Positions 29,857-54,405 of a stretch of 64,000 nucleotides of DNA are shown piece after piece. The DNA is from Caldalkalibacillus uzonensis (lineage in GTDB: Bacteria; Bacillota; Bacilli; Caldalkalibacillales; Caldalkalibacillaceae): positions 1 through 64,000 of the forward strand of contig NZ_JAUSUQ010000011.1 of NCBI RefSeq assembly GCF_030814135.1, in the 5' to 3' direction. The first letter of the stretch is position 1. Every line of letters starts with the position of its first letter. The translations under genes were made by a program, and so were the position numbers. The notes under the pieces are model-generated. The model did no database searches. It saw only the letters and a list, made by a program, of their open reading frames with translations, and had not been told where the DNA came from.

Positions 29857-31119
29857 TTACTCTTCAACATAGGGAATCGTTAATGGACCGAGGGGAAGCA
29901 CAGCTACACTCATATTTTCACCATATTTTTCCTTTAATTGTTCCAATGTGTGTTCGATATCATGAGTAGGATTGAACATGGCTTTTTCCACATCTTTGTC
30001 GGGCAAACTCGAATAAACGTAAACATCCGCCCAAACCTGGATGACGGCTTGTTTTTGTACTTGCCATTGGTCAAAGATTTTAAATGACGGGTCATTGATC
30101 ATATCCAGGATTTCCTGGGGCGTTTTTCTCATTTGAAGGATCTTTGCGTAATTCCCATGATTGGGAAGACCGTCCGAACATTCCGCTGCACAAATAATGG
30201 TTCCGCCCTGTTTTACGATTTTATGCGCGGCACTCATCCCTTTTACAGCTTGATAAAGATTTTGATCCAACGGATAACCTGAATTCGATGTAATGACCAC
30301 ATCGAAACGATGCTCGCAACGGATCATCGCATGTTCTTTGGCAAATGCGCAGCCCCGGTCATGGGCTTGAAACAACTCCCCGGCAAATACCGCCGTAATT
30401 TCTTTCTCCCTGTTTAAGGTGACATTCAACAAGAAGTCAGGCGGACACATCCGGTTCACTTCCCGGGCCATCTCCTGGACTGGATTGTTTACCATATTTC
30501 CCCATGTGGCTAAAGGATCGCCAATCATCCGTGCATTGTGGAAGGTCATGATTGTTTCGATTCCCGCAATCCCCGGCATGATCCCTTTCGGTCCTCCGGA
30601 GAATCCCGCAAAGAAGTGAGGCTCAATAAATCCAGTCACAATCTTGAAATCGGCTTCCACATACTCCTTATTCAAATAAACATGACAGCCAAATCGGCTT
30701 TCCCCGACTTTGACCAACTCCTCTTTATTATGGCAATGATGATTGATGACACGAACATTGTCAACAACCCACTCGCCCAACATTTGAACAAATTCTTCTC
30801 TCGTTTGATCTCTATGGGTTCCGGTCCCGTTAATGATAACAAAGTTTTCAAGGGGAACGTGATGCAATTCCTTTAATAACCATGGAACCAGCTTGTGATT
30901 AGGGGTGGGACGTGTAATGTCGCTGATGACGATGGCCACTTTATCCGTTTTTTTCACTCTATCGCGTAATGGGGCTGTCCCGATCGGATTTCGCAAGGCA
31001 TGAAGAACCGCTTCCTCTTCATTTTCAAGTCCAGGCAAGTTTTTTGGTTCAAGAATGACCGAATGATCCGGTACTTCAATCGCCAATCCTTGTTTTCCGT
31101 AAAGCAGTGTTGTTTTCAT
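29857..31119 (-). CDS. larA: LarA-family nickel-pincer racemase/epimerase
   Basis: A 420-residue homologue of lactate racemase, which uses a covalently bound nickel-pincer nucleotide to racemise 2-hydroxyacids. The active-site set of LarA is present at near-constant offset: Asp67/Arg70 (SDITRPTP), His102 (GTGTHR), His168 (EPHFFAG), Lys178 (GGPKGIMPG, cofactor attachment), His194, Gln290 and Lys293 (QAVKG). The natural substrate may be lactate or another 2-hydroxyacid. No larB, larC or larE maturation genes occur in the window, so they must be encoded elsewhere. GGGGAGG precedes the ATG; glxK lies 77 bp upstream. Confidence 0.88.
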   Translation of the reverse strand: MKTTLLYGKQGLAIEVPDHSVILEPKNLPGLENEEEAVLHALRNPIGTAPLRDRVKKTDKVAIVISDITRPTPNHKLVPWLLKELHHVPLENFVIINGTGTHRDQTREEFVQMLGEWVVDNVRVINHHCHNKEELVKVGESRFGCHVYLNKEYVEADFKIVTGFIEPHFFAGFSGGPKGIMPGIAGIETIMTFHNARMIGDPLATWGNMVNNPVQEMAREVNRMCPPDFLLNVTLNREKEITAVFAGELFQAHDRGCAFAKEHAMIRCEHRFDVVITSNSGYPLDQNLYQAVKGMSAAHKIVKQGGTIICAAECSDGLPNHGNYAKILQMRKTPQEILDMINDPSFKIFDQWQVQKQAVIQVWADVYVYSSLPDKDVEKAMFNPTHDIEHTLEQLKEKYGENMSVAVLPLGPLTIPYVEE

Positions 31120-31195
31120 ACAAGCCTCCCCATTTCCCAATTTTTACTTTTTTATTTCAATCATTTGTTTGATTTTCAATGTTTAGACCTCCTTG

Positions 31196-32341
31196 CTATT
31201 CATGATGAGCTGGATTTGCCATATATGTTCGTACAACTTGTTCCGCCGTTTGCGCCAGTAATTCTTCGGCACGATCGATCGCTTCCTCGAGGGACATTGG
31301 ACCGCTGACAATACTATGAATACTATGGATCCCATATTGATAGAGGGTTTCCACTCCAGGCCCCACAGAGCCTGCTAAGACAAACACCGGTACCCCCTGC
31401 TTTTGGGCTTCCTGGGCCACTCCCATCGGTGTTTTTCCGGAAGCGGTTTGGAAATCGATTTGTCCTTCCCCTGTGAAGGCCAACTCAGCTCCTCTCATTT
31501 TTTCCCCCAGCCTGGTGAACTCAATCACAATATCGATCCCCCGTTTCATTGTGGCTGGGAAAAAGGCTTGAAATGCTCCCCCAATCCCGCCAGCCGCCCC
31601 CGCTCCAGGCAGGTCGTGCAAACGGATCCCTTTTTTCTTTTCCACCAGATCCGCCCAACGAGTGAGATAATGATCCAATTGTTCCACCATTTCCGGTGTT
31701 GCCCCTTTTTGCGGACCAAACACATGGGAAGCTCCATGAGGACCAATCAAAGGGTTTTGTACGTCGGAGGCAATTAAAAATTGGGACTCCTCAATACGAG
31801 GATCAAAGTTTCGATCATCAATATCGGCGATATCGCCCAAGGCCTGCCCGCCCCATCCGATGGGATTCCCTTTACTATCATAAAGCCGAATACCCAGAGC
31901 CTGCAGCATCCCTATTCCGCCATCATTGGTTGCGCTTCCGCCAATCGCCAAAATAAAACGGCGACATCCGTCATCAAGGGCTTTTTTAATTAACTCCCCC
32001 GTTCCGTAGGTTGTCGTTACCATGGGATTTCTCTCTTCGGGAGGGACGAGACATAGGCCGGAAGCGCTGGCCATTTCGATCACACAGGTTTCCCCATCTC
32101 CCAACACGCCATATGCTGCCTGAACCGGCCTGTGCAAGGGCCCGGTCACGGATACCGCCACCTTCCGACCGTTGGTGGCGGCAACAAGACTATCCAGCGT
32201 ACCTTCTCCTCCATCCGCTACGGGAACAAGGACCGTTTCCGCTTTTGGCAGTACACGTTTAATTCCCTTTTCGATTGCAAGCGAAGCTTCCCATGCCGAT
32301 ACACTGCCCTTGAAAGAATCAGGTGCAATTACAATTTTCAC
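31196..32341 (-). CDS. glxK: Glycerate kinase (GarK/GlxK family)
   Basis: A 381-residue glycerate kinase of the two-domain bacterial type. Diagnostic segments: IAPDSFKGSVSAWEA at the start, VADGGEGTLDSL, AIGGSATNDGGIGMLQALG (phosphate binding), a DLPGAGAAGGIGGA motif and AFTGEGQID. Family members phosphorylate D-glycerate from glycolate, glucarate or galactarate routes; E. coli GarK yields 2-phosphoglycerate. The start is GTG at 32341 behind GGGAGGCGGTG. It is divergent from cdaR and in line with larA, forming a glxK-larA unit. Confidence 0.92.
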   Translation of the reverse strand: MKIVIAPDSFKGSVSAWEASLAIEKGIKRVLPKAETVLVPVADGGEGTLDSLVAATNGRKVAVSVTGPLHRPVQAAYGVLGDGETCVIEMASASGLCLVPPEERNPMVTTTYGTGELIKKALDDGCRRFILAIGGSATNDGGIGMLQALGIRLYDSKGNPIGWGGQALGDIADIDDRNFDPRIEESQFLIASDVQNPLIGPHGASHVFGPQKGATPEMVEQLDHYLTRWADLVEKKKGIRLHDLPGAGAAGGIGGAFQAFFPATMKRGIDIVIEFTRLGEKMRGAELAFTGEGQIDFQTASGKTPMGVAQEAQKQGVPVFVLAGSVGPGVETLYQYGIHSIHSIVSGPMSLEEAIDRAEELLAQTAEQVVRTYMANPAHHE

Positions 32342-32495
32342 GTTTTCACCGCCTCCCTGTAAAACGCTCTTAGTTATATATATTATAAAAATTTAAACCC
32401 CAAAAATCTTCAGTTAAAATATACAAAAGAAAGATTTAAATTATAGCATATTTTTGGTTAATATAAACATAAATGACACAGGGAGTGAAAGCAGC

Positions 32496-33569
32496 ATGCT
32501 GACCAAGGAAATTGCCCGCGACATTGTAAAGGAAACAATGATACGGCTGAATCGAAATGTCAATATGATGGATCACACTGGAAAGATCATCGCCTCCGGA
32601 GATGCTTCCCGGCTGAATCAAATTCATGAAGGTGCTCAGTATGTTTTGGAGACCGGCCAACCCTTAATTATTCAAAATCCTTCACAATGGATGGGAGCCC
32701 TCCCTGGTATCAATTTGCCCGTTGTATTCCAAGGTCAAATTGTGGGAGTCATTGGAATCACTGGAGCCCCGGATGAAATCGGGCAAGTCGCGGAGTTGGT
32801 CAAAATGATCACAGAGATGATGATCAACCAAGCTTTTGTTGAAACTCAATTGGAATGGAAACAGCGGATGAAAGAAATTGTTTTCCATGAATTAATTCAA
32901 CCAAAAACTAATTATGAAGGGGTGGACCAGCGTTTAAATCTGTTACAGATTCATCTCCATCCCCCATTTCATGTGACTATTGTTGAATTTGGAGAAATGA
33001 CCATGAAAAGCCAGATGTTGATTAAAACGCTAGAAGACCTTCTTGATGACAAAAAAATGGTCACCGGCTTTCTTGGCTTCAACCGTTTGTTCATTCTTTC
33101 TTTCGGCCTTGCTGAACTCACCATTATACAAAATTTGGAAAAGGTTTGCGCGTTTATGAAACGGATGGGGATTCCACTAAAAATGGGACTGGGTTCCGCA
33201 GTGGAAGAAAAGGAAAAGATATGGATCTCTTATGAAGAGGCAAGGATTGCCCTGGATATGGGGACCCAAGATCAGGATCTCATTTCTTATGCTGACATTG
33301 AGACGAGAGCATTGCTTTCTCAAATTGACAGGGAGTTTAAACAAAAATTTACTTCCCGGATTTTGGGAAACCTTTCGCCTAAAGCACTCCAAACACTGGA
33401 AGTATTTTTTTCCTGTAATTTGAATCTGGCCAAGACTGCCAAAGCACTATATGTGCACCGGAATACGTTGATTTACCGTTTGAAAAAAATCAAACAAGAT
33501 ACAGGTTATGATCCCCAAAATTTTGAAGATGCCGTTACGTTGCAGATTGCTCTATGGATGCGGCAATAG
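32496..33569 (+). CDS. cdaR: Sugar-diacid/glycerate utilization regulator (CdaR family)
   Basis: A 357-residue activator of the CdaR family. Residues 1-130 are the diacid-recognition domain (EIARDIVKETM near the start, then HTGKIIASGD and GQIVGVIGITG). The middle is a GGDEF-like fold. The C-terminal PucR-type helix-turn-helix reads NLAKTAKALYVHRNTLIYRLKKI. Family members respond to glycerate, galactarate or glucarate and switch on glycerate kinase genes. The gene is divergent from glxK-larA. The ATG at 32496 follows AGGGAGTG. Confidence 0.88.
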   Translation: MLTKEIARDIVKETMIRLNRNVNMMDHTGKIIASGDASRLNQIHEGAQYVLETGQPLIIQNPSQWMGALPGINLPVVFQGQIVGVIGITGAPDEIGQVAELVKMITEMMINQAFVETQLEWKQRMKEIVFHELIQPKTNYEGVDQRLNLLQIHLHPPFHVTIVEFGEMTMKSQMLIKTLEDLLDDKKMVTGFLGFNRLFILSFGLAELTIIQNLEKVCAFMKRMGIPLKMGLGSAVEEKEKIWISYEEARIALDMGTQDQDLISYADIETRALLSQIDREFKQKFTSRILGNLSPKALQTLEVFFSCNLNLAKTAKALYVHRNTLIYRLKKIKQDTGYDPQNFEDAVTLQIALWMRQ

Positions 33570-34799: not shown

Positions 34800-35165
34800 A
34801 TGTCAATTAGAACCGATGTAGCATCCCTTGCCGCTTTAGCCAAAGTGCTGAGAAACCGAAATCTTAATCAAAGCTTTGCGGATGTTGTACGCACACTGCA
34901 GAAGCAAGTGCCCTATTTTGATTGGGTCGGCGTTTATCTGAGACAAGGGAACGCATCAGAATTGGTAGCGGCATCCGACCAAGACAAGCAACTGGAATGG
35001 GAAGCTAATGCCGAGCTACGCATCCCCATTGAAGACCAAGTTCAACAACAGGAATTAGGGAAAATTGTGGTTAAAAGCCGGGATCCCCTGTGCTTTGATA
35101 TGACAGACGTTTCCACTCTGCAAACCCTGGCTCATGAGCTTAGCCAACGGTTGAGCCTGCATTGA
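34800..35165 (+). CDS. GAF domain-containing protein
   Basis: A 121-residue protein that is essentially one GAF domain: VPYFDWVGVYLRQGN, then a stretch ending in ELRIPIEDQVQQQELGKIVV, and a C-terminal helix with FDMTDVSTLQTLAHEL. It lacks the cysteines of the free-methionine-(R)-sulfoxide reductases, so a small-ligand sensor role is more likely. The ATG at 34800 follows GGAGGGAAG. It converges on the GntR gene. Confidence 0.75.
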   Translation: MSIRTDVASLAALAKVLRNRNLNQSFADVVRTLQKQVPYFDWVGVYLRQGNASELVAASDQDKQLEWEANAELRIPIEDQVQQQELGKIVVKSRDPLCFDMTDVSTLQTLAHELSQRLSLH

Positions 35166-35170
35166 CTTAT

Positions 35171-35203
35171 AAAAAGGTGTTCCTGTTACTCAAGGAACAC
35201 CCT
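35171..35203 (-). terminator. Terminator of the accessory sugar-acid operon
   Basis: GGTGTTCCT-...-AGGAACACC with a minus-strand T run after it. The stem overlaps the stop codon of the GntR gene and can also serve the convergent GAF gene. Confidence 0.88.
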
Positions 35204-35818
35204 CCACGAATCATCTAAATCAAGATGGCGATACAACTCTGCGGTTAACCGCGCCTCGTCCCGATTGCGAATTGCTTCCAGGATCGACAGATGTTGTTCC
35301 GCCACCCTGGTCAGGTTTTGGTGATATTGGGTGGAAACCAGTGCAATGAACCTTCGAATCTGGGCATCGACGGTTAACCACAACCGCAAAAACACGTTCT
35401 TGTTGGCGCCTTCAATGATCAACTGGTGAAAACGGCAATCCTCGGCCGTAAATTGAAGTACATTTCCATCCAAGGCAAGCTGCATCATACGCCGTACAAC
35501 GTCCTCGAAGGGGGCCAAATCAAAAGGACGCTTGATCAACGCCTTGGCCGAAGAGATTTCGATCAGCTTCCTGAACTCAAAAAGCTGCTCCATTTCATGA
35601 AAAGAGATTTCTGTTACAAAGGTTCCTGTGTGTGGAATGACGTTGACCAAGCCCTCCATTTCTAAAACCCTCAGCGCCTCGCGCACCGGCGCTTGACTTG
35701 TGCCAAAAGAGTTGGCGACTTGGAGCTCTCTGATTCGCGTTCCCGGACGCAATTGACCGGTTATGATCTGTAGCCGTAACTCGGATAAAATTTGCTCCCG
35801 CCGTACGTTGGTTGTCAC
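35186..35818 (-). CDS. GntR-family (FadR subfamily) transcriptional regulator
   Basis: A 210-residue regulator. The winged helix has PGTRIRELQVANSFGTSQ and APVREALRVLEMEGL, and the wing HTGTFVTEI. The FCD domain carries the metal-binding residues (EDCRFHQLIIEG, then EQHLSILEAI and YRHL). The start is GTG at 35818, which has TTGGAGTG at good spacing; upstream codons in frame are not conserved. It is the last gene of the minus-strand operon and probably represses the promoter at 40071-40107. Confidence 0.85.
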   Translation of the reverse strand: MTTNVRREQILSELRLQIITGQLRPGTRIRELQVANSFGTSQAPVREALRVLEMEGLVNVIPHTGTFVTEISFHEMEQLFEFRKLIEISSAKALIKRPFDLAPFEDVVRRMMQLALDGNVLQFTAEDCRFHQLIIEGANKNVFLRLWLTVDAQIRRFIALVSTQYHQNLTRVAEQHLSILEAIRNRDEARLTAELYRHLDLDDSWRVFLE

Positions 35819-35930
35819 TTGTGCCTGCACTCCAATGCTGTATATATTGGTTATTGATAGCCGTATGTTAAAAACTTTTAAAATGAGACTTCTGGTAGTT
35901 AGATTAACGATGATCCCTGAAGATGTCAAT

Positions 35931-37133
35931 TTAAAAATTGTTTCCTAAATCATCTTTCCAAGGATCACCCACCGCCCAATGGGTATTTACTCCTGAATCT
36001 TTTGTCACTCTACGAATGAGATCATCCCGTTTTAAAAGTTCCGGCAAGAGTTCCGCTCCGATTCCTGGAGCCTCAGGGATCTGCATAAACCCGTTTTTCA
36101 CCTGAATCGGATTGGTCACAATATTTTTGAAGTATGTGTTATAAAATGCACGTACCGACTCACAAATAAACAGATTCGGGATATTGGCGCAAATATGTGC
36201 ATTAGCAAGGCTGATAATTGGACCTCCGCAGTTATGGGGAGCAATTGGGAGTTGATACGCGCTTGCCAAAGTGGCAATCTTTTTCATTTCAGAAATGCCG
36301 CCAACCCAAGCAATATCCGGCATGACAATATCTACTGCTTCCTGCTGAAGCAGAGGTAAGAATTGGAACCGGCTAAATAACCGCTCACTCGCACAAATAG
36401 GAGACGTTGTTGTATTGCGAAGCTGTCTCAATGCCCCGATGTTATCCGCAGGAATAAGATCCTCAAGCCACATCACATCATAAGGTTCCAGTGCTTTGGC
36501 AATCTTGATTGCGGAAGGCAGATTCCAGCAGGCATGCCCCTCTATGGCAATTTCCATCTTGTCTCCCACAGCCTGGCGAATCCGTTCGACAATGCTCACC
36601 CCATAAGCCAGGTCCTCTTTCGAAATCGATTGACCTCCCGTTTTGACCGATAATTCGTCAAAATGCCAGATTTTCATGGCGCGAATGCCGTCAGCCAAAA
36701 GGCTTTGCGCCAGCTCTTCGGGGTTTTCGGTAAAGAGTTCATGATCCTGGTACGGACCATGGCTCACACAAGTATTATAAACCGGGATTTCTTCCCTGCA
36801 TTTTCCACCCAGCAGGCGATAGACAGGCAAATTGCTGGCCTTGCCAAGAATATCCCAAAGCGCCATATCTATGGCACTTAACGCACGAAGTTCCGCTCCA
36901 GCGTATCCATGGTAGTTAATCGCCTGGAACATATCCCTCCACAGACGTTCGATATCGAAAGGATTCTGGCCAAGGATCAGACCTGTCAATACATCGTGGA
37001 TCACGGCCACCGAAGAGGATGGTCGCGGAAATGTTTCCCCAAGTCCGGTTATCCCTTCATCGGTATGTATTTGTACAAATAAAAGATGCGGATGTTCCGG
37101 AATCTGAATGGTTTCAACTGCAGTGATTTTCAT
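35931..37133 (-). CDS. Mandelate racemase/muconate lactonizing enzyme family, sugar-acid dehydratase type
   Basis: A 400-residue enolase-superfamily enzyme. Residues 1-115 are the capping domain and the rest is the barrel. Metal ligands are Glu198 (IEGH), Glu224 (WLED) and Glu250 (ASER). His200 and His300 (IAPHNCGG) sit where the acid/base pair of D-galactonate dehydratase (ligands D183, E209, E235; H185, H285) is expected, with identical spacings of 26, 26 and 50 residues. Lys154 in MKIW is on the second strand. This predicts dehydration of a sugar acid to a 2-keto-3-deoxy acid; the exact substrate is unknown. The first ligand is Glu instead of the usual Asp. Confidence 0.85.
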   Translation of the reverse strand: MKITAVETIQIPEHPHLLFVQIHTDEGITGLGETFPRPSSSVAVIHDVLTGLILGQNPFDIERLWRDMFQAINYHGYAGAELRALSAIDMALWDILGKASNLPVYRLLGGKCREEIPVYNTCVSHGPYQDHELFTENPEELAQSLLADGIRAMKIWHFDELSVKTGGQSISKEDLAYGVSIVERIRQAVGDKMEIAIEGHACWNLPSAIKIAKALEPYDVMWLEDLIPADNIGALRQLRNTTTSPICASERLFSRFQFLPLLQQEAVDIVMPDIAWVGGISEMKKIATLASAYQLPIAPHNCGGPIISLANAHICANIPNLFICESVRAFYNTYFKNIVTNPIQVKNGFMQIPEAPGIGAELLPELLKRDDLIRRVTKDSGVNTHWAVGDPWKDDLGNNF

Positions 37134-37145
37134 CTTGATCCCCCC

Positions 37146-37811
37146 CTATGCTTCAAAAAAACTCTCTCCATCTTTGCGGTATTGGTATGCGATATCTTCG
37201 TCCAATTCGATTCCCAAACCCGGTTTCTCGGTTAGCGTCAAATATCCGTTGTGTATCAAGGGTTTATCCGAGTCCTTCACTAGATCATTCCAGAAGGGTA
37301 CACTGGCAGAGTGCCACTCCAGGACAAGGAAGTTCGGAATCGCTGCACAAACATGGGCGGCCGCAACTGTTCCAATCGGACTACTGATATTGTGGGGAGC
37401 AACTGCGACATTGTGCATATCCGCCAAATCTGCGATACGTCTGGCTTCCAACAAGCCTCCCACTTTCTGAAAATCAGGAGCAAGAATATTGACTGCCTGC
37501 TTTTGCAAAATCTCATAAAATTGGTGCCTTAAATAGTGATTTTCACCGGAAGCGATCGGAACACTTGTGGCGTGCGTCACCCAATGCAAGGAATAGATAT
37601 TCTCCGGAGGGACAGGATCTTCCATCCACAATAGGTTAAAAGGTTGACAAGCTCTAGCCAATTTAATAGCGTCGTTGACATTGTAATTCCAATGACAATC
37701 AATGGCGAGGTCCACTTCATTTCCCACCGCTTCACGGACTGCTTCCACCAGGCTTACCATGAACTCGATTTCCTTCATTGCTAAGGAACGGTTATAGTCT
37801 GGATCCGATTT
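37146..37811 (-). pseudogene. 5'-truncated second sugar-acid dehydratase (MR/MLE family)
   Basis: About 220 residues of a second enolase-superfamily dehydratase remain, starting at KSDPDYNRSLAMKEI. The catalytic half is intact: Asp and His in IDCHWN, then Glu in WMEDPVPP, Glu in ASGENHYL and His in VAPHNISS, with spacings of 26, 26 and 50. The capping domain and first barrel strands (some 150 residues) are gone, replaced by the 3' end of the enolase paralogue in another frame. An ATG upstream in this frame (37859) could start a chimeric 237-residue protein, but it would lack the domain that closes the active site. Confidence 0.8.
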
Positions 37812-38994
37812 TAATCTGCCCTCCACCGACTCCCACTGCCAAATCAGACAGAGTAGCATCTTCTGTTTCTCCAGAACGAGCTGAAATAATAGTATTCATA
37901 CCAGACTGTTGAGCCAACTTTATTGCTGCAATCGTTTCCGTGAACGTGCCAATTTGATTCATTTTTATTAGTACCGCATCTCCGGCTTGTTCCTTAACGC
38001 CCATTTTTATTCGCTGCGGGTTTGTTGCGAACAAATCGTCACCAATCAATTGAACGCGATGTCCTAATCTTCGTGTCAGTTCCTTCCACCCCTCCCAGTC
38101 TTCTTCAGCCAAGCCGTCTTCGATTGATAATATTGGATATTCATTGACCCATTTTTCAAGCAAATCAATCATTTCTAAAGAACTCAATATACGATTCTCA
38201 GATTTTAAATGATACATTCCATCCTCTGGATGATAGAAATGTGAAGCAGCTACATCCAGGGCAATCATAACATCCTTACCCGGCAATAACCCTCCCATTT
38301 CTACGGCCTGAAGAAGTAACTCTAATGCCTCTCGATGTGAGCTTAATTGAGGACCAAATCCTCCTTCATCCGCAAATAGGGAGGATTGGTATCCCTTTTC
38401 TTCTAATACTTGCTTAAGATTCCAAAAAACATTGGATACGATCTCCAACGCATGTGGAAAATTCATCGCGCCGATGGGAATAATCAAGAAATCCTGAAGA
38501 TCAATGTTTTTGCCTGCATGAAGACCACCGCTAATCATATTGACCATAGGCAATGGAATTTCAAGATTATGATTATTAAAATATTTTTGAGCGATATAAA
38601 GATACAAAGGACATTTCTTTGCTTTGGCAACTGCATGAATGACTGCAAAGGAAACACCAAGGATGGCATTCGCACCTAATCGGGACTTGTTTGCAGTACC
38701 GTCCATTTCAATCATCGTGTAGTCAATTGCTTCATGTTCCTCCGCATCCATCCCTATAAGTTTAGCAGCCAATTCCTCATTAACATGTTTTACTGCAGAA
38801 AGTACACCCATCCCCCGGAATCGACTGAGATCTCCGTCTCTAAGTTCCCATGCTTCATATTTTCCAGTTGATGCACCCGAAGGAACCATCATGCGCCCTG
38901 TATCCCCAGATTCAAGTAAGACTTCTACCTCTACCGTTGGGTTCCCACGTGAATCCAAGATTTCCCTCCCATTTATCGATTTAATGCGATTCAT
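37792..38994 (-). CDS. Divergent enolase paralogue, C-terminally truncated
   Basis: A 400-residue enolase homologue. The metal ligands Asp247, Glu292 and Asp319 and the lysines Lys344 (LIKMNQIGT) and Lys395 (GQIKIGS) are kept, as are the mobile loop PSGASTG and His159. Two catalytic positions differ from glycolytic enolase: Glu of QEF is Asp168 (QDF), and His of SHRSGETED is Ala372 (SARSGETED). It is therefore unlikely to be a housekeeping enolase. The last 30 or so residues are missing; the frame stops just after KIGS at the fusion point with the dehydratase remnant. The gene overlaps the upstream kinase gene by 4 bp. Confidence 0.85.
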   Translation of the reverse strand: MNRIKSINGREILDSRGNPTVEVEVLLESGDTGRMMVPSGASTGKYEAWELRDGDLSRFRGMGVLSAVKHVNEELAAKLIGMDAEEHEAIDYTMIEMDGTANKSRLGANAILGVSFAVIHAVAKAKKCPLYLYIAQKYFNNHNLEIPLPMVNMISGGLHAGKNIDLQDFLIIPIGAMNFPHALEIVSNVFWNLKQVLEEKGYQSSLFADEGGFGPQLSSHREALELLLQAVEMGGLLPGKDVMIALDVAASHFYHPEDGMYHLKSENRILSSLEMIDLLEKWVNEYPILSIEDGLAEEDWEGWKELTRRLGHRVQLIGDDLFATNPQRIKMGVKEQAGDAVLIKMNQIGTFTETIAAIKLAQQSGMNTIISARSGETEDATLSDLAVGVGGGQIKIGSRL

Positions 38995-39989
38995 AGAGTG
39001 CTGTCCCCTCCCATGACTTCATGAAAAAATTGATCTAGCGGAACCTTCCTTGAGCCTCTTAAAATATTTAAAGCCGTCATTCGTATTTCTTTAATTAATT
39101 TATCATCTTGTAAATAGCTGACCGGAGATTTTCCATCTAATCTACTAAGTAGAAAAAGCCCTAAATGACATGGAAATTTTTCACTGATTTGCTCCCCATA
39201 TTCATCTAATAATGCCAAAACTGTACGGACAGCTTCTGTCCGTTTTTCCAATGCCCATCCCTTAAGTAACAAATGAGCAATACAGGATACCAGATCAAAA
39301 ACAGGATTCCCCCAATGGGCAACTTCGTAATCCAGTAAAATTAACGAATGATCTTGATCGACGAGAATATTTTTAGGTGTAAAATCTCCATGGACAAGAC
39401 AGAATTGTACCTCAGTTAAGTCCTTGACTAACACTTGAACCATGTTTTTTAATTCAGCATACTTTTGTCCTATGTAATGATAAAAAGGGTCAATTCTAAG
39501 TTGTTTAGAAAATCTCAAATCTTTTAACTGAGCGATTTGATTTTCATTCATAGATAAACTTTGCTTATGAATCATCTTCAGCAATCGACCTACATTGCTA
39601 GCAACAGATTGATCGAATATACCCTCCATCAGTTGATTCTTCCAGGGTATTGTGCTTTCGGGTGCACAATTCATAATTAAAATATGCCTTTCTAAATCAT
39701 GATGGATGATCCCAGGTACTGTATCACTTGGGATTAAGTCTTGCAAAAACCTCATCACCAATTGCTCGCGAAAAATACGATCGACATCCGAATACCATTC
39801 TTCCTGAACTTTAAGTTTGGGCAGAGCTTGTTTCAACACCCAACGTTTGGACGGTGTCGTGATTTTCCAAACCATATTTGAAACACCGCCTGTCAATAAT
39901 TCAACTTTCAATTGTTCATCGATGTTTACCCATTCCATTTGCCGCAGATATGAAACTACTTCTTCATGGGTACTTAATAACCAGCTCAT
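38991..39989 (-). CDS. APH-family small-molecule kinase
   Basis: A 332-residue protein of the aminoglycoside phosphotransferase/choline kinase fold. The nucleotide loop is LTGGVSNMVWKI (32-43), with Lys53 as the ATP-binding lysine in WVLKQ. The Brenner motif is HGDFTPKN (200-207), with catalytic Asp202, and the DFG-like metal site is LLDYEVAHWGNPVFDL. Substrates of this fold include methylthioribose, choline, homoserine and sugars; none can be assigned. It is the first gene of the operon and overlaps the enolase paralogue by 4 bp, so the two products probably act on the same metabolite. GGGAGG precedes the ATG. Confidence 0.8.
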   Translation of the reverse strand: MSWLLSTHEEVVSYLRQMEWVNIDEQLKVELLTGGVSNMVWKITTPSKRWVLKQALPKLKVQEEWYSDVDRIFREQLVMRFLQDLIPSDTVPGIIHHDLERHILIMNCAPESTIPWKNQLMEGIFDQSVASNVGRLLKMIHKQSLSMNENQIAQLKDLRFSKQLRIDPFYHYIGQKYAELKNMVQVLVKDLTEVQFCLVHGDFTPKNILVDQDHSLILLDYEVAHWGNPVFDLVSCIAHLLLKGWALEKRTEAVRTVLALLDEYGEQISEKFPCHLGLFLLSRLDGKSPVSYLQDDKLIKEIRMTALNILRGSRKVPLDQFFHEVMGGDSTL

Positions 39990-40070
39990 TTAACAGCCTC
40001 CCGTTGCCGAAGAATTACTTTTAGGTAATTCTTGGAGAGGATATGTTTTGCTTATTTTTTAACATCTGTC

Positions 40071-40107
40071 TTATCGATATATTATCGATAATCATACAAA
40101 ATGTCAA
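40071..40107 (-). promoter_or_regulatory. Promoter with doubled TATCGATA operator for the APH kinase-enolase operon
   Basis: Minus-strand TTGACA (40107-40102), 17 bp, TAATAT (40084-40079). Two copies of TTATCGATA (40071-40079 and 40082-40090) lie 11 bp apart, one helical turn, and overlap the -10 on both sides. This is a typical repressor arrangement; the operon's own GntR protein is the obvious candidate. Confidence 0.7.
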
Positions 40108-40169
40108 TTTATTTTTATTTTTTATGGTTGTGGGGCTGTGATCTTGTCATACTCCAGGCGCACAAAAAT

Positions 40170-40200
40170 GAAAGTTCCCTCCAGTGACGGAGGGAACTTC
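40170..40200 (-). terminator. Terminator of the fumarase gene
   Basis: Minus-strand AAGTTCCCTCC-GTCACT-GGAGGGAACTTT, then ATTTTTG, 16 bp after the stop. Confidence 0.88.
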
Positions 40201-40215
40201 TGTTATAAATGTCTT

Positions 40216-41754
40216 TTAATTAAATACCGGCTCTTTGAACTGAGCCAGACGCTCCAGTGAAGATTTTTCCACATCTTCATGCAAGCTGTTGCCATGAGCA
40301 TCCATGGTGACGATGGCGGCAAAGTTCTCCACTTCAAGATGCCACATGGCTTCCGGAATACCGAATTCTTTCAGGAAATGAACATCTTTGACATCTTTAA
40401 TACACTTGGCGTAATATTGGGCCGCTCCGCCAATGGCATTGAGATACACTGCCCCGTGTTCTTTAAGACCAGCCAGTGTTTTGGGGCCCATACCGCCTTT
40501 ACCAATCACGGCCCGGATGCCAAACTTTTTGATGATATCCGCCTGGTAAGGTTCTTCACGGATACTGGTGGTAGGTCCTGCTGCCTTGACATGCCACTTG
40601 CCGTTTTCATCCTGTAACATCACTGGGCCGCAGTGATAAATCACCTGGCCATTCAGATCAACCGGTGCATCATGGTCCATTAGATACTTGTGAATGGCAT
40701 CACGGCCAGTGTACATGGAACCATTAATGATCACCACATCGCCCACTTTTAGCTGGCGAATCTGCTCCTCTGTAATCGGCGGGGTTAGGACCACTTCCCG
40801 GGCGCCTTCACTCTTGGCCACTTCAACGATTCTCTTCACTTCCATCTCGATTGGCCGTTCATCTTTATACAACCAGCGTTTAATCTCCCCTGTTGCAGGG
40901 TCCACCACGACACCCAGACGGCGGAAAGCCCAGCAGTTGTAAGCGACTGAAACAAAGAAGCTGGCCGGGATGCGGTTCATCACCCCGATCTTACAGCCCA
41001 GCAAGGTGGTTTCACCACCGAATCCCATAGTGCCAATACCCAGCTTATTGGCGTTTTCCATGATGTACTCTTCCAGCTTGGCCAGCTCTGGGTTAGGATT
41101 AACGTCATCCACTTCCCGGAACAGTTGCTTCTTGGCCAGTTCATAACCGGTGGCCCGGTCTCCGCCAATACCGACACCAATGAAACCGGCGCTGCAGCCC
41201 TGTCCCTGGGCTTGATAGACACTGTGTAAAATGCATTTGCGAATCCCGTCCAGATCACGGCCCGCCCGGCCCAATCCTTCCAGTTCAGTGGGCAAGCTGT
41301 ACTGGATGTTTTTGTTTTCACAGCCGCCTCCTTTGAGAATCAGGCGGACGTCAATTTCATCTTTTTCCCACTGTTCATACTTAATGACAGGCGTTCCTTC
41401 CCCAAGGTTGTCTCCGCTGTTCTCCCCGGTTAAGGAGTCCACAGAGTTGGGACGCAACTTGCCGTCTTTAGTGGCCTGAGCAATCGCCTCACGAATCGCT
41501 TCGGTCATCTCCAGCTGATTGGCACCAACCGGTGTTTTAATGATAAAGGTGGGCAAGCCGGTGTCCTGACAGATGGGGGACACGTTTTCTTCTGCCATGG
41601 TGATGTTCTCGCTGATGGTGGATAATGATAAGGCGGCACGTGTACCCGCATTCTCCCGGGCCTTCGCTTTGGCAATGGCTGCCCGAACATCAGGCGGCAA
41701 GTTGGTGGATGTTTCTACAATTAACTTGTACATGCTTTCCCTAAAGTTTTTCAT
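40216..41754 (-). CDS. fumA: Fumarate hydratase class I (Fe-S, single chain)
   Basis: A 512-residue oxygen-sensitive [4Fe-4S] fumarase of the TCA cycle. The N-terminal alpha domain has SPICQDTGLPTF, KGGGCENKN and GCSAGFIGVGIGGDRATG. The C-terminal beta domain has VVIINGSMYTGRDAIHK, AAGPTTSIR and GKGGMGPKTLAGL. Single-chain class I fumarases are about 505-550 residues, so the length is normal. The ATG at 41754 follows GGAAGGGG; another ATG at codon 8 with AGGGAAAG is possible. Related class I hydratases act on tartrate or mesaconate, but position and conservation favour fumarase. Confidence 0.9.
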   Translation of the reverse strand: MKNFRESMYKLIVETSTNLPPDVRAAIAKAKARENAGTRAALSLSTISENITMAEENVSPICQDTGLPTFIIKTPVGANQLEMTEAIREAIAQATKDGKLRPNSVDSLTGENSGDNLGEGTPVIKYEQWEKDEIDVRLILKGGGCENKNIQYSLPTELEGLGRAGRDLDGIRKCILHSVYQAQGQGCSAGFIGVGIGGDRATGYELAKKQLFREVDDVNPNPELAKLEEYIMENANKLGIGTMGFGGETTLLGCKIGVMNRIPASFFVSVAYNCWAFRRLGVVVDPATGEIKRWLYKDERPIEMEVKRIVEVAKSEGAREVVLTPPITEEQIRQLKVGDVVIINGSMYTGRDAIHKYLMDHDAPVDLNGQVIYHCGPVMLQDENGKWHVKAAGPTTSIREEPYQADIIKKFGIRAVIGKGGMGPKTLAGLKEHGAVYLNAIGGAAQYYAKCIKDVKDVHFLKEFGIPEAMWHLEVENFAAIVTMDAHGNSLHEDVEKSSLERLAQFKEPVFN

Positions 41755-53385: not shown

Positions 53386-53422
53386 TTGAAGTCATCTTAT
53401 TTTTATAGTAATATATCGATAT
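53386..53422 (+). promoter_or_regulatory. Promoter and palindromic operator of the LLM oxidoreductase gene
   Basis: TTGAAG (53386-53391), 17 bp, TAATAT (53409-53414). The palindrome ATATCGATAT (53413-53422) overlaps the end of the -10. The ArsR-family protein encoded just upstream is the likely binder. Confidence 0.6.
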
Positions 53423-53460
53423 TTCTAGATATTTATATATAAAGGTGTGGAGGGATGATG

Positions 53461-54405
53461 ATGAACCGGTTTGATAAGCATAAAGGATATTCACGCATGT
53501 TTAAAGAAAGTCATCTCACTCTTGGGTTGTTCTTTCCCATAGAATCATACGAGGGCAGCATTCCAAAAATGGACATTGACCAGCAAATGAAACTGGCCAA
53601 AAGAGCAGAAGAGCTCAATTTTGCTGCATTATTCGTCAGGGACGTTCCGTTACATGATCCTTATTTTGGGGATGTGGGCCAAATTTATGATCCTTGGGTC
53701 TATTTAGGATATATAGCCGCCCAGACAGACAACATTGCTTTGGGCACGGGAAGTATTATTCTAACCTTGCGTCACCCTTTGCATGTGGCCAAAGCGGCTG
53801 CTTCCATCGACCAAATTTCCGGCGAACGCCTGGTTCTCGGGGTGGCAACAGGAGATCGTCCTATCGAATTTCCTGCCTTCTCCGTTGATCCTGAACAGCG
53901 TAGTATTTTGTTTCAAGAAGCCATCATGGTCATGAAAAAAGTGTGGAAGGAGAACTTTCCTGCGATCCGATCACCACGGGTTCAGCTGTCGAACGGGGAT
54001 CTTTTGCCTAAACCGCGCCTGTTGGACATTCCGGTGTTGGTCACTGGTCACAGCTCCCAGTCCGTGGAATGGATTGCTGAAAACAGTGATGGTTGGCTGT
54101 ACTATCCCCGAAACTTGAGATTCCAAGCGGAACTGATTAAAAATTGGCGTGCTCATACCGGTCAGTTTAAACCGTTCAGTCAATCCTTATATGTAGATTT
54201 GACGGAGGATCCGAATCATCCGCCAATCCCTATCCATTTAGGGTTCCGAATCGGGCGCAATCCACTCATTGAATTTATAGAAAGCCTTAAAATGGCGGGT
54301 GTGAACCATGTGATTATGAACTTAAAATATGGCCAACGTCCTGTTGAAGAAGTGGTTGAAGAATTAGGGGAAGAAGTTGTTCCGCACTTTCCGGCATTAA
54401 GTTAA
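53461..54405 (+). CDS. LLM class flavin-dependent oxidoreductase
   Basis: A 314-residue member of the bacterial luciferase-like superfamily, closest in appearance to the TIGR03571 group. It binds FMN or F420 in a TIM barrel. Motifs: SHLTLGLFFPIESYEG, LAKRAEELNFAALFVRDVP, DPWVYLGYIAAQTDNIALGTG, HPLHVAKAAASIDQISGERLVLGVATGD and ENSDGWLYYPR. Substrate unknown. Of three consecutive ATGs the third (53461) has the best spacing to GGAGG. The preceding ArsR gene suggests inducible expression. Confidence 0.88.
   Translation: MNRFDKHKGYSRMFKESHLTLGLFFPIESYEGSIPKMDIDQQMKLAKRAEELNFAALFVRDVPLHDPYFGDVGQIYDPWVYLGYIAAQTDNIALGTGSIILTLRHPLHVAKAAASIDQISGERLVLGVATGDRPIEFPAFSVDPEQRSILFQEAIMVMKKVWKENFPAIRSPRVQLSNGDLLPKPRLLDIPVLVTGHSSQSVEWIAENSDGWLYYPRNLRFQAELIKNWRAHTGQFKPFSQSLYVDLTEDPNHPPIPIHLGFRIGRNPLIEFIESLKMAGVNHVIMNLKYGQRPVEEVVEELGEEVVPHFPALS

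Follow-up and report, generated by a model that had tools for sequence, protein, structure and literature searches.

The 21-bp inverted repeat that overlaps the promoter of a kinase-enolase-dehydratase-gntR operon in the window (the whole 64-kb stretch of DNA analyzed here) is probably the operator of the FCD-type GntR regulator encoded by the last gene of that operon, with repression relieved by a ligand and the operon autoregulated. Judged from sequence comparison, this reading is given a probability of about 0.8. According to the proposed switch, ligand-free GntR dimers would occupy two TATCGATA boxes, which lie one helical turn apart over the -10 hexamer, and occupation of the -10 would keep RNA polymerase off the promoter. 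A sugar-acid ligand in the FCD pocket would then free GntR from the operator, so that the substrate or an intermediate would induce the kinase-enolase-dehydratase-gntR group, gntR being included in its own control. Since the boxes cover the -10, steric repression by GntR that is relieved by a ligand would be the simplest mechanism. The regulator-operator pair is ready to test, and it belongs to a little-known kinase/enolase/dehydratase operon in the Bacilli. No literature report of this operator on such an operon was found among the papers listed (subscription papers and RegPrecise lay outside the scope), and literature searches for the operator text, for FCD operators, and for the pathway returned nothing useful.

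A doubled palindrome over the operon promoter

The promoter and its palindromes are as the original prediction described them, in sequence as well as in position: TTGACA and TAATAT, separated by a spacer of 17 bp (minus strand, 40107-40079), are overlapped by two TATCGATA cores (40072-40079 and 40083-40090) at a spacing of exactly 11 bp. A feature absent from that prediction is that both boxes together make up one 21-bp dyad centered on the -10 (Table 1). The promoter matches the consensus at 10 of 12 positions and ranks first among the 7 promoter-like sites in 35100-40300; promoter-likeness by itself is no proof, because shuffled versions of this interval contain a mean of 11.2 such sites. 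The leader that separates the promoter from the start codon contains a further inverted repeat (AAGAATTACC-TAAA-AGTAATTCTT, 40010-40033, one mismatched pair), which may form a hairpin in the mRNA or serve as an additional binding site.

Table 1. Positions of the operon genes and of the promoter and operator elements in the window.
Feature	Position	Strand	Remarks
APH-fold kinase, first operon gene	38991-39989	minus	Pfam PF01636
Enolase paralogue, C-terminally truncated	37792-38994	minus	400 aa, ends after GQIKIGS
MR/MLE dehydratase fragment	37146-37859	minus	overlaps enolase ORF, different frame
Intact MR/MLE-family dehydratase, galactonate-dehydratase-like	35931-37133	minus	82% identical to G217 protein
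FCD-type GntR regulator, proposed repressor of 40071-40091	35186-35818	minus	last operon gene
-35 hexamer TTGACA	40107-40102	minus	
-10 hexamer TAATAT	40084-40079	minus	sits at center of operator dyad
Operator, 21-bp inverted repeat TTATCGATA-ATA-TATCGATAA	40071-40091	strand-neutral	overlaps promoter
Box 1	40082-40091		perfect 10-bp palindrome TTATCGATAA, within ATTATCGATAAT
Box 2	40071-40080		TTATCGATAT on + strand
Terminator-like hairpin	40171-40200	minus	3' of fumarase gene, upstream of operon promoter

The single box and the pair differ sharply in how often they occur. The window contains three copies of TATCGATA where 0.36 would be expected (a count reached in 1 of 100 shuffles), while TTATCGATA boxes are present twice against a simulated mean of 0.29, a mildly unusual count that 6 of 150 simulations reached. 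In the genome, single boxes of the form TTATCGATAW fall at 23 distinct places (14-17 rows, vs. 3-4 for the backward control); 21 of these lie outside the operon, and 15 of the 18 that were examined are inside ORFs. On the other hand, no second copy of the pair with up to three mismatches exists in the whole 3,877,707-base genome. Specificity therefore resides in the pair, not in the single motif. The commonness of single boxes, mostly in coding DNA, and their only mildly raised count in the window would suit palindromes that arose by chance in an AT-rich promoter, but such an origin is very improbable for a pair that is unique in its genome and conserved at a locus of 61% GC (G217, see below). 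A lone TATCGATA at 53414-53421 lies approximately 34 bp 5' of a luciferase-like monooxygenase gene (53455-54405); no partner box was found for it.

A wider regulon was also considered and rejected, as matches elsewhere fall mostly in ORFs and the count in the organism's own genome is at the level of the backward control. With up to three mismatches, TTATCGAT-N5-ATCGATAA was found at 12 places in that genome including the operator, vs. 11 for the control, and the only place with two mismatches falls within an ORF. Of 398 genomes, 7 others have a match to TTATCGATA-N3-TATCGATAA with at most one mismatch, vs. 1 for the backward control, and 6 of these 7 sites fall within ORFs. The seventh lies just 5' of the start of a phosphoglycerate-mutase-like gene, with a glycerate-kinase-like ORF close by (L017; genes named by reading).

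The probable regulator and its apparently damaged operon

The product of the last operon gene has matches to PF00392 (E-value 3.4e-15) and PF07729 (E-value 4.4e-19), both above the curated cut-offs. It thus combines an N-terminal GntR winged helix with a C-terminal FCD domain, which places it among the FCD-type (FadR subfamily) regulators. An aspartate and three histidines, corresponding to the conserved set of the FCD metal site, are aligned in all 8 proteins compared. Together with the dehydratase neighbors, these conserved residues point to a sugar acid as the ligand, and induction by the substrate would be in keeping with the FCD family. The 112-bp leader of gntR itself contains no TTATCGAT box, so autoregulation would run via the operon promoter. 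The self-regulated operon of the original prediction is thus plausible, since gntR closes the series of genes on that strand, with its co-transcription presumed.

The operon looks damaged, in that a truncated enolase is fused out of frame to a dehydratase that has lost its N-terminal half, with the junction near 37792-37801; the cause is probably either a deletion or a fault in the assembly. Three full-length relatives of the enolase paralogue have 432, 431, and 439 aa, vs. 400 aa here, and the paralogue is 54% identical to the other enolase of the genome. Compared with its G217 relative, the MR/MLE fragment is missing approximately 200 N-terminal residues. The best NCBIfam match of the intact dehydratase is galactonate dehydratase (NF010624), at 247 bits under a cut-off of 311. 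GC3 also differs between the operon halves (0.32-0.35 vs. 0.45-0.58); neither this difference nor the damage was mentioned in the original prediction. That the promoter and gntR are unrelated units joined by the deletion was rejected, because G217 keeps a kinase, two dehydratases, and gntR together. Nearby, genes for a CdaR-like regulator, a glycerate kinase, and a LarA-like racemase (29857-33569) make up a further cluster for sugar acids or glycerate.

Among 10 related loci (L003-L012, from Paenibacillus, Cohnella, and Bacteroidota records), the kinase gene is followed by an enolase gene in 9, and no enolase was present in the short stretch examined at the tenth (L009). In two of the related loci that were read, the kinase and enolase genes lie beside SDR and MR/MLE genes. 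As a guess, the enolase may be dedicated to a product of the kinase that resembles 2-phosphoglycerate. The best kinase match among the 10 loci is 47% identical, and a search for close orthologues returned 1 of 101 relatives, the window's own kinase. The operator was absent, at up to three mismatches, from all 10 related kinase loci, where GntR matches are themselves absent or at most 29% identical.

Conservation of the operator beside related regulators

Among 396 genomes of the class, relatives of the intact dehydratase were found in G217 (82% identical), which belongs to another family, and in G137 (52%). At the G217 locus (L027), the gene for the 82% dehydratase shares a strand with an MFS transporter gene, and divergent from them are gntR (54%), a dehydratase gene whose product is 57% identical to the fragment, and a kinase gene (33%); no enolase match was found in its 16-kb stretch. 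The window and G217 GntR proteins share an identical recognition helix, FGTSQAPVREAL, and the 87-bp gap between the MFS and gntR genes contains TTATCGATTTATGATCGATAA over TTGACA-17-TATGAT. Given the composition of this gap, the chance of a match to the window pattern with two or fewer mismatches is approximately 2.4e-6. This is a fairer test than the occurrence of TTATCGAT-N5-ATCGATAA in only 2 of 396 class genomes, the window genome and G217 (backward control 0), because that pattern was defined from these two genomes. Two points count against GntR as the reader of the operator: the G217 operator is in the MFS/gntR gap rather than 5' of the kinase, and G217 is the one close comparison genome found. 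In the family of G007, GntR was found in 0 of 344 genomes (a set containing no positive, although the same query found G217), and the search of the rest of the G217 family returned 1 of 41 genomes, G217 itself.

At E-values of 1e-30 or below, GntR homologues are present in 4 of 309 class genomes, namely the window genome, G217, G169 (36%), and G189 (34%). Both G169 and G189 have TTATCGATA approximately 30 bp 5' of gntR, with shuffle chances of 0.0024 and 0.0023, respectively. In G169 (L046, 3905-8953), four TTATCGATA boxes occur in 14 kb, all intergenic (simulated mean 0.12; 0 of 400 simulations reach 4): two between TctC and ETF genes, one before gntR, and one before a DctP gene. Two of the four directly follow TTGACA-17-TACTAT and TTGACA-17-TATGGT. 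These boxes, in divergent promoter regions and that of gntR around TctC, ETF, and TRAP-transporter genes, are predicted to form the small regulon of another SQAPVREA regulator. The gntR of G189 adjoins an RraA-like gene and MR/MLE dehydratases, and besides the box 5' of gntR there is one inside a dehydratase ORF, which counts against the proposed operator. As controls, the regions upstream of 5 other FCD regulators were searched; the 9-mer was found in none, and the 8-mer ATCGATAA in one, which also counts against it.

With the same 21-bp operator beside the G217 gntR and TTATCGATA 5' of gntR in both further homologues, the proposal that GntR is the natural candidate repressor is supported. 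A different regulator encoded elsewhere, for instance of the LysR, TetR, or LacI type, could be imagined to read the palindromes, as sequences like TATCGATA are also met close to regulators of other kinds. For example, two ATCGAT cores lie 9 bp apart between LysR-like and MFS-like genes elsewhere in the same genome (L050, G000 contig C2 near 227696; genes named by reading), and are possibly the LysR protein's own site. Such a reader is improbable at the window operator, since the operator tracks gntR across genomes, and no regulator besides gntR is common to those loci, as far as they were read.

How many dimers would bind is a separate question. A single GntR dimer might span the 21-bp inverted repeat TTATCGAT-N5-ATCGATAA, rather than two dimers on two boxes, and the exact identity between the window and G217 is indeed limited to this outer-arm dyad, the inner arms being degenerate in G217. 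This arrangement is unlikely, as isolated boxes lie 5' of promoters or gntR in G169 and G189, and known FCD sites such as the BioR boxes are single 10-bp palindromes that are sometimes tandem (PMC4494728, PMC4554459). The isolated G169 boxes and the BioR precedent favor one dimer per box, hence two dimers in the window as the better guess. The two-dimer occupancy of the original prediction is in this way favored over a dimer on the long dyad, short of proof.

BioR, a GntR-family repressor of biotin genes in the Alphaproteobacteria, has the operator TTATMKATAA (PMC4494728), and box 1 fits this consensus. In Paracoccus, BioR boxes stand in tandem at each of two bio operons, and gel shifts were obtained with predicted sites (PMC4554459). 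BioR controls biotin genes, whereas the window operon encodes kinase, enolase, and MR/MLE proteins. AphS and BphS, also of the GntR family, repress operons for phenol and biphenyl and have sites of the form AAATmTCGAkATTT, often several, and cooperative binding has been proposed (PMC6449761); BphS blocks its operon's promoter (PMC10282184). Compared by operator consensus alone, these sites resemble the window operator as even palindromes with the same TCGA center and in being multiple (PMC6449761), but they serve aromatic pathways in the Betaproteobacteria. DgoR of Escherichia coli, a GntR/FadR-type repressor of a sugar-acid operon, responds to galactonate, represses its own synthesis, and has a promoter overlaid by a close pair of inverted repeats (PMC12288454, PMC7674646). 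It resembles the window regulator as a GntR/FadR-type protein with doubled palindromes over the promoter, and the sugar-acid ligand and autoregulation proposed for the window would match it as well. In contrast, dgoR opens its operon and the window gntR comes last, and DgoR is listed with GT-N3-AC sites, not AT (PMC4494728). Several dimers of E. coli NanR bind adjacent repeats cooperatively; those repeats are direct (GGTATA) and the cooperativity depends on an N-terminal extension, whereas the window operator is palindromic (PMC8012715).

Recognition-helix residue and operator base

The common motif of the FadR subfamily is TKGT/ACMA, with BioR named as an excluded exception, and extra boxes lie 7-12 nt from the site centers (Suvorova et al., 2015; PMC4494728). 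The window operator has AT/AT where the common type has GT/AC, and so departs from this motif. It would extend the BioR-like AT-type operator, which that protein-DNA correlation study leaves out, to a catabolic regulator. In FadR, Arg45 contacts G (PMC4494728). By our alignment, the first Arg of recognition helices that read S-R-x-P-V-R-E takes this position, which is Gln in the window regulator. A one-residue specificity switch in FCD-type GntR proteins, in which Arg selects G and Gln or His selects A at ±3, has about even odds. Arg regulators would then recognize TTGTnnACAA and Gln or His regulators TTATnnATAA, the window (SQAPVREA with TTATCGATAA) being one example. Upstream of the relatives with SRAPVREA in Nitratireductor and Streptomyces lies ATTGTCGACAAT, vs. 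ATTATCGATAAT for SQAPVREA proteins.

Among 32 FCD-like regulators compared, 24 have Arg and 8 have Gln, His, or Lys at this position. Strict G-type boxes are present at 5 loci, all with Arg (L067, L069, L071, L088, and L011), whereas the strict A-type box is found at 4 regulator genes (L073 with His, beside bioB; L076, G169, and G189 with Gln) and at the window operon (Gln). The remaining 23 of 32 have neither box at the regulator gene, including the window gntR leader as well as G217, where the boxes are imperfect. Some of the boxes counted are weak (TCGTCGACGA in L011; A-type TTATATATAA in L076 and G189), and the assumed gene start of L003 falls inside the gene. The idea arose after the first Nitratireductor box, and the set examined afterwards is small, partly related, and hand-picked among the matches listed, with 23 plasmid loci; two of the 5 G-type loci are both Nitratireductor, and base composition is a confounder. 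The apparent co-variation of Arg with G and of Gln or His with A is a small-sample lead. If it holds, the operators of many unstudied FCD regulators would be predictable from one recognition-helix residue, and a Gln to Arg substitution in SQAPVREA would shift the preference from TTATCGATAA to TTGTCGACAA.

Two members of the set deserve a comment. The Gln regulator of L070 has AGAATCGATTCT, with A at ±3 yet outside the strict pattern. The bioB-adjacent regulator of Sinorhizobium numidicum (L073), probably BioR by its position, has His in SHVPVREA, vs. Gln in the SQAPVREA of the window regulator.
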